A DNA stretch of 13,891 nucleotides from Gulosibacter sediminis. GTDB lineage: Bacteria; Actinomycetota; Actinomycetes; Actinomycetales; Microbacteriaceae. Below, piece after piece: positions 9,069 through 12,751 of the stretch. Within the stretch, counting starts at the first letter, position 1; every line of letters begins with the position of its first letter. The stretch covers positions 3,411 through 17,301 of the forward strand of contig NZ_JACXJG010000006.1 of the NCBI RefSeq assembly GCF_014904065.1. Reading direction: 5' to 3'. The position numbers and the translations under genes are program-made. Under the pieces are notes generated by a model. It made no database searches. It had not been told where the DNA came from and saw only the letters and a program-made list of their open reading frames with translations.

Positions 9069-9140
9069 GCCTTCGTAGCTCAGTGGATAGAGCATCCCTC
9101 TCCTAAAGGGTGCGCGCGGGTTCGATTCCCGCCGAGGGCA
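9069..9140 (+). tRNA. tRNA-Arg (anticodon CCU)
   Basis: A complete cloverleaf can be drawn. Acceptor GCCTTCG (9069-9075) pairs with CGAGGGC (9133-9139) with one T-G pair. The D arm is GCTC-AGTGGATA-GAGC (9078-9093). The anticodon arm is TCCCT-CTCCTAA-AGGGT (9095-9111), with anticodon CCT at 9102-9104, which reads AGG arginine codons. The variable loop is 4 nt. The T arm is GCGGG-TTCGATT-CCCGC (9116-9132), and A9140 is the discriminator. CCA is not encoded. The top pair of the anticodon stem (9095/9111) is a T-T mismatch. The perfect terminator 8 nt downstream and the -10 element upstream suggest a single-gene transcript. Confidence 0.96.
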
Positions 9141-9147
9141 CACAGCG

Positions 9148-11451: not shown

Positions 11452-11961
11452 ATGTCGCAGTCGTACGAAGTCACGGCCACCGTTCCACTCACTCCCGAAG
11501 AAGCGTTCGCGCTCGCGCACACGCTCGGTCCCGACCGCACGGCGTGGGACACGCGTGTCGTCAAGCAGCTTCTGCTGCGCGATGCGACGAGACTCGGCAG
11601 CGGCGCGCAGGTGTTCGTGCGGCTCGACGATGGGCTGCGATTGATCCAGGAGTACGACCACTGGATGCCCGGCCAGCTCTCGAGCACGCGGCTCGTCAAG
11701 GGGCCGTGGTGGCTCGAGAGCTACGGTGAGGGCTGGCACTTCGCCCCGACTGACGGTGGCACCCGAGTGACCTGGAAGACGACCTTCCGTCACCGACTCC
11801 CCGTGTTCGGGCCGCAGGCCGAGCAAGTCATGCTCGTGAAGCTCCGCGCGCTGCTCGAAGCACGCATGGACGACTTCCGCGCCGCCGCCCGCGACGTCGA
11901 GCTCGTCGAGCGCGCGACCGCGGGGTCGCTCCCCCACGGCGCGCGCCACCGCGACCGCTAA
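11452..11961 (+). CDS. SRPBCC (START-like) family protein
   Basis: A 169-aa protein with the helix-grip layout of the polyketide cyclase/dehydrase-type SRPBCC superfamily: SYEVTATVPLTPEEAFALAH (4-23) is the opening strand followed by the grip helix. Successive beta strands follow (GAQVFVRL, LIQEYDHWMPGQLSSTRLVK, GWHFAPTDGGTRVTWKTTFRH), ending in a long C-terminal helix. Such proteins bind hydrophobic ligands; no ligand or enzymatic residue can be named here. The last ~20 residues (GSLPHGARHRDR) are basic and probably unstructured. The ATG lies 9 nt after the AIM24 stop, with GGGGG as a weak ribosome site. The stop overlaps the stop of the convergent HNH gene. Confidence 0.75.
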   Translation: MSQSYEVTATVPLTPEEAFALAHTLGPDRTAWDTRVVKQLLLRDATRLGSGAQVFVRLDDGLRLIQEYDHWMPGQLSSTRLVKGPWWLESYGEGWHFAPTDGGTRVTWKTTFRHRLPVFGPQAEQVMLVKLRALLEARMDDFRAAARDVELVERATAGSLPHGARHRDR

Positions 11962-12452
11962 GCCGCGAGGTACGGGGCCCACTCCTCCGAGGAGTCCCGG
12001 TCGACCCCGCGCACGTGCCAGCCGTGGCTCAGTGGCGCCGCCGGGCGACACAGTAGCTGCCAGCCCATCTCCTCGGGCGTACGGTCTCCCTTGACGTTAT
12101 TGCAACGCAGGCAGCACGCTACGAGGTTCTCCCACGAGTCGCGGCCCCCACGTGAGCGCGGCTGCACGTGGTCGATCGTGTTCGCGAAGCGACCGCAGTA
12201 GGCGCAACTGTTGTCGTCGCGACGTAGTACGCCCTTGCGTGACACGGGCATCCGTCGCGCCATGGGGATGCGCACGTAGCGCTTGAGCAGGATCACCCGC
12301 GGCCGGGAGAACTCCTGGTTCGTGGAACGTAGCGGCACTGTATCGTCGGCCTCGAGCAGGGCGGCTTTACCACCCAGCACCAGCACGAGCGCGCGGCGGT
12401 CTGAGACCACGGCGATTGGTTCGTACCCGGCGTTCAAAACGAGAGTTCGCAT
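11958..12452 (-). CDS. HNH endonuclease family protein (conserved actinobacterial type)
   Basis: A 164-aa protein of the small HNH family widespread in actinobacteria; biological role not established. The N-terminal half starts MRTLVLNAGYEPIAVVSDRR, and ILLKRYVRIPMARRMPVSRKG (55-72) leads into the HNH domain. The zinc site is formed by Cys83/Cys86 and Cys114/Cys117. The HNH core is TIDHVQPRSRGG (92-103) with Asp94-His95, Asn109 in SWENL, and CNNVKGDRTPEEMGW (117-131). All expected metal and catalytic positions appear intact, so nuclease activity is plausible. I choose the ATG at 12452, which gives the family-standard N-terminus and has AGGAG 6 nt upstream; the frame to 12491 would start inside the terminator hairpin. 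No promoter fits between that terminator and the ATG, so expression must depend on read-through (see leader features). Confidence 0.92.
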   Translation of the reverse strand: MRTLVLNAGYEPIAVVSDRRALVLVLGGKAALLEADDTVPLRSTNQEFSRPRVILLKRYVRIPMARRMPVSRKGVLRRDDNSCAYCGRFANTIDHVQPRSRGGRDSWENLVACCLRCNNVKGDRTPEEMGWQLLCRPAAPLSHGWHVRGVDRDSSEEWAPYLAA

Positions 12453-12601
12453 GCTTGCTCCTGGAATGCAGACAAAAAATGGCACTGCCACAAGGCAGTG
12501 CCATAACTAGACGCAGGCGCGATTATTCCATGGTGGAAATGGCGCTCGAAACCGGAGCAGGCGCGCGCCTGCGGCCTGACCTGACGACGTTGCAAGGTCA
12601 T
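12434..12601 (-). CDS. Upstream ORF / leader peptide before HNH gene
   Basis: A 55-codon ORF starts with ATG at 12601, preceded by an excellent ribosome site AAAGGAG 5 nt upstream. The peptide begins MTLQRRQVRPQARACSGFER, with four Arg codons in the first 13, including a rare AGG. It then runs through the terminator hairpin and stops at 12434, 19 nt inside the HNH gene in another frame. The later codons (ATA, TCT, AGT, TTT, TTG) are unlike the G/C-ending codons of neighbouring genes, so a stable protein is unlikely; a regulatory leader is the better reading. Ribosomes moving along it would disturb the terminator stem. No homolog is recognised. Confidence 0.45.
   Translation of the reverse strand: MTLQRRQVRPQARACSGFERHFHHGIIAPASSYGTALWQCHFLSAFQEQACELSF
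12473..12504 (-). terminator. Strong intrinsic terminator in the HNH leader (attenuator candidate)
   Basis: A perfect 11-bp stem (12479-12489 with 12494-12504, core GGCACTGCC / GGCAGTGCC) with a 4-nt loop is followed on the minus strand by six T (12473-12478). Its poly-T end is only 20 nt before the HNH ATG, leaving room for the AGGAG ribosome site but not for a promoter. On the plus strand no T run follows, so it acts on minus-strand transcripts. Confidence 0.88.
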
Positions 12602-12639
12602 GACTGCTCCTTTCGGACTCGAGTCACCGGGGTGATCTG
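12505..12639 (-). promoter_or_regulatory. Structured 5' leader RNA of the HNH gene
   Basis: Between the putative promoter and the terminator, the minus-strand RNA has several pairings by eye. The ribosome-site segment (12604-12615) can pair with 12547-12560: 7 bp, a two-base bulge, then 5 bp. CGCAGGCGCG (12564-12573) can pair perfectly over 10 bp with 12512-12521. A 16-nt palindrome (12557-12572) and a small TTCCA-CCA-TGGAA hairpin (12526-12538) also occur. The first two pairings are interleaved, so they form a pseudoknot or exclude each other. No known riboswitch class is recognised. An sRNA gene ending at the terminator is the alternative. Confidence 0.45.
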
Positions 12640-12645
12640 TGGAAG

Positions 12646-12651
12646 ATGCTA
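12646..12651 (-). promoter_or_regulatory. Putative -10 element for HNH leader transcript
   Basis: TAGCAT on the minus strand fits TANNNT and would start RNA near 12639, about 40 nt before the upstream ORF. No good -35 is found. The rest of the 12453-12808 gap, between this element and the terminator at 12752-12793, shows no gene; only a short GACTCGAGTC palindrome at 12616-12625 stands out nearer the leader. Confidence 0.35.
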
Positions 12652-12751
12652 CTGCCCAACGGGCCGGAGTTGCCGATCTTGCCTCGGCGACGCGCGAGCT
12701 CGTCACGCAGAGTTCACGCGTTCGACACCTCGACTGCGCGCTGGGGCGAAA

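Follow-up and report, generated by a model that had tools for sequence, protein, structure and literature searches.

A conserved, apparently undescribed transcription attenuator before an HNH endonuclease gene in Microbacteriaceae, with a uORF marked by the codon AUA

The HNH gene and its leader in Gulosibacter sediminis

The DNA considered here is a 13,891-nucleotide stretch of Gulosibacter sediminis, referred to below as the window. Its minus strand carries an HNH endonuclease gene preceded by a leader with a short upstream open reading frame (uORF) and an intrinsic terminator (Table 1). The encoded protein matches the Pfam models HNH, HNH_5, and HNH_4 above their cut-offs; NCBIfam matches for an HNH family label fall below their cut-offs only, and PADLOC and PDB searches return HNH-domain matches only, in the PDB mainly to IscB/Cas9-like proteins. 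A structure model derived from 13 sequences had a mean pLDDT of 40.8 and was left unused. Orthologues are present in 46 of 60 relatives (E ≤ 0.001), 217 of 249 genomes of the family Microbacteriaceae (E ≤ 1e-30), 100 of 248 genomes of the order (E ≤ 1e-40), and 139 of 198 genomes of the phylum (E ≤ 1e-20). Close relatives among 13 named loci belong to Gulosibacter, [Zimmermannella], and Pseudoclavibacter. The gene is thus widespread in actinobacteria while having no known role, and the attenuator described here offers a concrete regulatory handle on it.

Table 1. Elements of the HNH leader and the gene that it precedes, in window coordinates
Feature	Position	Strand	Basis
-10-like element TAGCAT	12646..12651	-	sequence; TANNNT at the equivalent place in 85/94 family leaders; no -35 recognised
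uORF ribosome site AAAGGAG	12607..12613	-	sequence
uORF, 55 codons, crosses the terminator, stop codon at HNH nucleotides 17-19	12434..12601	-	sequence, family comparison
AUA codon in frame, uORF codon 26, 22 nt upstream of the terminator stem	12524..12526	-	locus L001
Intrinsic terminator: 11-bp stem, TTGT loop, T6	12474..12504	-	terminator scan; family conservation
HNH ribosome site AGGAG	12458..12462	-	sequence
HNH endonuclease gene, 164 aa, putatively controlled gene	11958..12452	-	Pfam and orthologues

The terminator stem, ATGGCACTGCC/TTGT/GGCAGTGCCAT, occupies 12504-12479 of the minus strand with 11 perfect pairs and leads into six T at 12479-12474, the first of which doubles as the last base of the stem. 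A first-pass annotation of this DNA had described a perfect 11-bp hairpin with T6 ending 20 nt before the HNH start; the hairpin and its placement stand, with the distance from the T tract to the ATG (12452-12450) now counted as 21 nt. The HNH ribosome site, the upstream -10-like element, and the 55-codon uORF with its own ribosome site were likewise found as it had reported them. A terminator scan of the window gives 10 sites, compared with 6.2 expected in shuffles, and the site in the HNH leader has the longest stem (11 pairs, the next having 6). The leader also folds better than its shuffles (z -2.33), only 4 of 200 matching or bettering it. A sigma-70-type promoter scan of the window gave no match of at least 9/12, so that the -10 assignment is drawn from TAGCAT and its conservation only.

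The gene upstream of the leader encodes an NlpC/P60 protein and has a terminator-like hairpin of its own, recognized by eye, at 12792-12760. Ahead of the -10-like element, at 12701-12717 of the minus strand, is GTGAACTCTGCGTGACG, a GTnAC-type direct repeat that we take to resemble an MtrA box; a similar repeat occurs in 37 of 97 family leaders, as counted with one pattern and no control. A tRNA-Arg(CCT) gene lies at 9069-9141, 2.8 kb past the 3' end of the HNH gene, and tRNA genes are present in the HNH loci of several relatives (L008, L013, L017, L022, and L028).

Conservation of the leader and of an AUA codon within it

HNH upstream DNA was compared at 112 loci, 109 of them from the family; the three from other families (L018, L021, L027) were dropped for the analyses of the terminator, the -10 element, dN/dS, and a hairpin, P1, described below. 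A strong terminator (at least 8 bp and at least 5 T) precedes the HNH gene in 94 of the 109 family leaders, against 1.3 expected from dinucleotide shuffles. Of 94 leaders, 85 have TANNNT 15-60 nt upstream of the uORF, and only 4 have it in the longer stretch from the terminator to the HNH ribosome site. HNH mRNA must therefore arise mostly by read-through, as had been proposed from the window, where no room was seen for a promoter after the terminator.

Under a rule that required a ribosome site, in a search that by design favoured open frames and ribosome sites, a uORF was called at 98 of the 112 loci and none at the other 14. The uORF frame stays open as far as the terminator in 93 of 94 leaders and the other two frames in 41 and 59, a difference to be read with the preference of the ORF choice for open frames. 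The stop codons of 94 uORFs lie no more than 6 nt before the terminator in 34 cases, inside it in 17, beyond it in 42, and earlier in 1, so that 59 end inside or past the terminator. An IRHS block and a SIxTxDARA start are common to the uORF peptides of many genera, and a dN/dS of 0.43 over 16 close, non-independent pairs points to some constraint on the peptide, for which reason peptide effects may also contribute. The window's uORF peptide has no match in Pfam. The uORF peptides are partly conserved within Microbacteriaceae and unrelated between families. Judged by sequence comparison, the uORF, its ribosome site, the terminator, and the lack of a downstream promoter are all conserved; absence of the hairpin or uORF from close relatives had been named as grounds for abandoning the attenuator, and both extend far beyond that circle.

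The codon ATA is concentrated in the uORF frame. Across 98 uORFs it occurs 101 times in frame and 4 and 6 times out of frame, with at least one copy in 80 uORFs and none in 18. Between codon 15 and the terminator (95 uORFs, 2,109 codons) the corresponding counts are 84, 2, and 3; ATA is missing between codon 11 and the terminator in 24 of 94 uORFs. Elsewhere it is rare: 52 HNH genes contain 3 in 8,528 codons, the genes of the window 1 in 3,938, and 400 kb from a relative 69 in 123,279. TTA is rarer than ATA in that relative (55 of 123,279) and appears only twice in uORF regions. Comparison of 16 close, non-independent uORF pairs shows ATA columns kept in 14 of 14 cases, versus 246 of 305 for other codons. 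Microbacteriaceae uORFs usually have one AUA, and those of a second family, f7, mostly three.

Other Ile codons are not enriched in uORF regions, where ATA makes up 84 of 117 Ile codons (72%) compared with 69 of 5,361 (1.3%) in the genes of a relative. By this measure the uORF is marked by the codon AUA, and the amino acid Ile as the mark is ruled out. A role of AUA as a motif in the DNA or RNA, for example a -10 element, is ruled out by its staying in frame amid unrelated flanks and families. The idea that His codons make up for absent ATA was also rejected, with 0.081 and 0.080 His per codon in uORFs with and without ATA.

A scan of 400 kb of one relative, G008 (about 15% of the genome), found 41 terminators of at least 8 bp, 8 of which precede an ORF; a uORF reaches three of these terminators, and the only one of the three with ATA is the HNH leader. 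A separate scan at a threshold of at least 7 bp listed one other candidate AUA leader and missed that of HNH because the longest HNH ORF starts inside the terminator.

The AUA mark recurs in other families of HNH leaders. In f7, 15 of 18 loci have one to four ATA (13 have three), confined to a single frame that crosses the terminator; another locus, L160, has three ATA and no called terminator, and two loci have no ATA. Of the 15 marked frames, 12 end on the ATGA at the HNH start, 2 inside the terminator, and 1 just ahead of the HNH start; the f7 peptides are unrelated to those of Microbacteriaceae. Four of nine f16 loci have one to three ATA in a frame ending at the HNH start. All four have a further ATA in a different open frame, which makes f16 weak support for AUA; the single ATA of a fifth f16 locus is out of frame with its called uORF. 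The uORFs of f15, and those of two of three f19 loci, are His-rich and contain no ATA, and in f15 His codons may have replaced AUA as the mark. Several f15 hairpins have no T tract. Runs of His codons were noted in the uORFs of f15 loci L172-L176 and L257-L263, for example HHHCVHHHHVHV in L173.

A candidate mechanism and its alternatives

The attenuator before HNH is real, conserved, and apparently undescribed, as the first-pass annotation had surmised, and it appears to be linked to translation. That annotation had also supposed that the leader senses something. The marked step can now be narrowed to AUA decoding in the uORF, and a described riboswitch was not among the Rfam results, which at gathering thresholds comprise nothing but tRNA in the window and in 15 relative loci. 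On balance, the sequence comparisons make it probable that the leader is a translation-coupled transcription attenuator in which prompt decoding of AUA would give read-through and slow decoding termination. RNA polymerase would start upstream of the uORF and then meet the terminator before HNH. A ribosome that passes AUA promptly would reach the terminator during its transcription and hold the hairpin open, allowing HNH to be transcribed. Slow decoding of AUA by the minor tRNA-Ile2, or a polymerase that outruns the ribosome, would let the hairpin fold and transcription end.

The distances in the leader are compatible with such a scheme. Where an ATA is clear of the terminator (77 leaders), 15-94 nt separate the last such codon from it, with a median of 48. 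Given the usual size of a ribosome footprint, a ribosome paused at AUA should leave the hairpin free, and the 5' arm should be covered once the ribosome is at the uORF stop. In 63 of the 77 leaders (14 being too short, and the window's own among those outside), the 5' arm is predicted to pair with upstream RNA less than in shuffles, both with a ribosome at ATA (0.38 versus 0.50) and with no ribosome (0.53 versus 0.57). No antiterminator is therefore visible, and the alternative pairings initially suggested for the leader are not borne out by these relatives. Since 15 nt or more separate the last AUA from the terminator and no antiterminator emerged, opening the hairpin should fall to the ribosome itself. 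Two E. coli studies bear on this scheme. When a stop codon was moved to 5 bp ahead of a terminator, termination efficiency fell from ~90% to <10%, and a terminator within a coding region retained 40% of its efficiency, so that occlusion by the ribosome need not be complete (PMC4824070); a polyproline stall ahead of the pyrL terminator raised termination without EF-P (PMC5021804). From the leader comparisons and these studies together we infer the polarity of the HNH attenuator, with prompt AUA decoding giving read-through and slow decoding termination; its signal is likewise inferred.

The strongest competing account, to which we give somewhat less than an even chance, shares every step above and differs in the signal alone. 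AUA would be a fixed brake, not a sensor, and the attenuator would report the race between polymerase and ribosome, as set by NTP level, DNA damage, or general translation, in the manner of pyrBI. The leader's likeness to the described pyrBI architecture speaks for a brake, as do the single AUA that is enough in most Microbacteriaceae uORFs and the His-rich f15 uORFs that stand in for it. Against it stand the specificity for AUA, the rarer TTA (55 versus 69 of 123,279 codons) being found only twice in uORF regions, and the three or four AUA repeated in f7 uORFs.

Reversed polarity, in which a ribosome stalled at AUA switches HNH on through an unrecognized antiterminator, is distinctly unlikely. 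It would agree with most characterized codon-sensing attenuators, where a stalled ribosome means "on," and one minimum free energy fold of the window leader does contain many alternative pairs; however, the 5' arm is less paired upstream than in shuffles under both conditions given above, and the uORF stops are placed to let a ribosome reach the terminator. A third reading, very improbable, makes the uORF an independent gene for a small protein, ended by an ordinary terminator of its own, and places the HNH promoter elsewhere; here the shared peptide block, the dN/dS of 0.43, and the 34 of 94 uORFs that end just before the terminator are outweighed by the 59 of 94 that end inside or past it, the 12 of 18 f7 uORFs that overlap the HNH start as ATGA, the scarcity of -10-like elements past the terminator (4 of 94), and the unrelated peptides of different families.

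Read as AUA-gated attenuation, the leader has the ribosome-occluded arrangement of pyrBI, with AUA, on the sequence comparison, as the marked codon. In the E. coli pyrBI leader (pyrL), the ORF extends up to an intrinsic terminator or across it, and the hairpin is kept from forming when a ribosome follows polymerase closely, as proposed here (PMC5021804, PMC4824070). The HNH leader differs in its marked AUA, in preceding an HNH gene and not pyrimidine synthesis, in having no known UTP response, and in the P1 and P2 hairpins of relatives. Actinobacterial amino-acid attenuators (trp, ilv, leuS) also place a uORF with marked codons before a terminator (PMC1262725). Unlike these, the HNH leader marks only AUA and not all Ile codons, shows no antiterminator, and precedes a gene outside amino-acid metabolism. 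It would further resemble the Streptomyces TTA codon and bldA tRNA, where one very rare codon and a minor tRNA gate a gene; TTA lies in the gene itself, whereas AUA lies in a uORF and would act through a terminator, and variation in tRNA-Ile2 is hypothetical. In E. coli topAI, ribosome stalling in a uORF reportedly controls the downstream gene. In contrast, no conserved arrest peptide is recognized in the HNH leader, and stalling should switch HNH off.

Neither an attenuator before HNH nor AUA-gated attenuation was found among the open-literature matches listed, and the term "HNH" is absent from the main text of two surveys (PMC1262725, PMC2965389). Rare-codon stalling and premature 3' ends are discussed for Pseudomonas in another paper (PMC8297930). 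As far as is known, the HNH leader would be the first attenuator to single out one synonymous codon and not an amino acid. Changing that single codon should alter HNH expression, by which the role of the HNH protein becomes testable.

Hairpins P1, P2, and P3

The first-pass annotation had called for a search for covarying stems; two, P1 and P2, exist in relatives and are missing from the window's own clade (L001-L003), where the one P1-type match, in L003, precedes the uORF. P2 has at least 6 pairs around NNCC[AG] just ahead of the HNH ribosome site, and occurs in 79 of 109 leaders compared with 0.5 in shuffles. Among 61 sequences, 93.8% of cells are paired in its inner helix and 61.3% in the weaker outer helix, percentages inflated by the choice of sequences for having the hairpin, with the shuffle counts as the control; this choice applies to both alignments, A1 (61 of 63 listed sequences, L005 and L010 out) and A2 (35 of 37, L023 and L077 out). 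Changes on both sides are seen at 7 of 7 inner-helix pairs. The whole-structure score of P2 is 0.400, compared with at most 0.134 when slid, and 0 of 500 shuffles reach it. P1 lies within the uORF in 47 of 97 cases, against 1.9 expected from simple shuffles, and in 45 of the 47 its loop begins 23 nt downstream of the first nucleotide of the uORF. Its covariation score is 0.411 (at most 0.061 when slid), with changes on both sides at 4 of 6 pairs, a count reached by 18 of 500 shuffles, and no variation at 2 of the 6. P1 and P2, whose stems covary and whose loops share NNCC[AG], make up a new RNA motif associated with the HNH gene.

A P2 model applied to 60 genomes, with at most 106 candidates scored per genome, gave 15 matches at E < 1e-3, of which 14, many of them already in the model's alignment, lie directly before HNH and 1 (in G050) elsewhere; P2 as a regulon-wide element was rejected on this basis. 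Pairing of the P2 loop with HNH codons and mimicry of a tRNA-Gly anticodon by P2 were set aside, by eye only.

In the many relatives that have them, P1 might act as a pause that synchronizes polymerase and ribosome, and P2 probably as a second, translational layer. A fuller reading can be imagined around tRNA-Ile2, which bears lysidine and serves a codon almost abandoned in these GC-rich bacteria. HNH would be made only when this tRNA is plentiful, for example because AT-rich foreign DNA such as a phage brings its own copy, and the protein would also bind the NNCCR loops of P1 and P2 and limit its own translation. Such an AUA switch is rather unlikely as a whole, and its foreign-tRNA and self-binding parts are speculation.

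A third hairpin, P3 (for example GGTCGTG CACTGT CACGACC), was noted between AUA and the terminator in L014, L026, L034-L037, L046, L050, and L081, with stems that differ between leaders. Hairpins of the P2 type with the loop AGCC[AG] stand before HNH at 3 of 9 f6 loci and at all 7 loci of f21, a family outside the order, to which P2-like hairpins thus extend. No uORF or terminator was noticed alongside the f21 hairpin, which is identical (CGGCGCG AGCCA CGCGCCG) in L117, L121, L124, L127, L128, L130, and L131 and lies about 25 nt before HNH.
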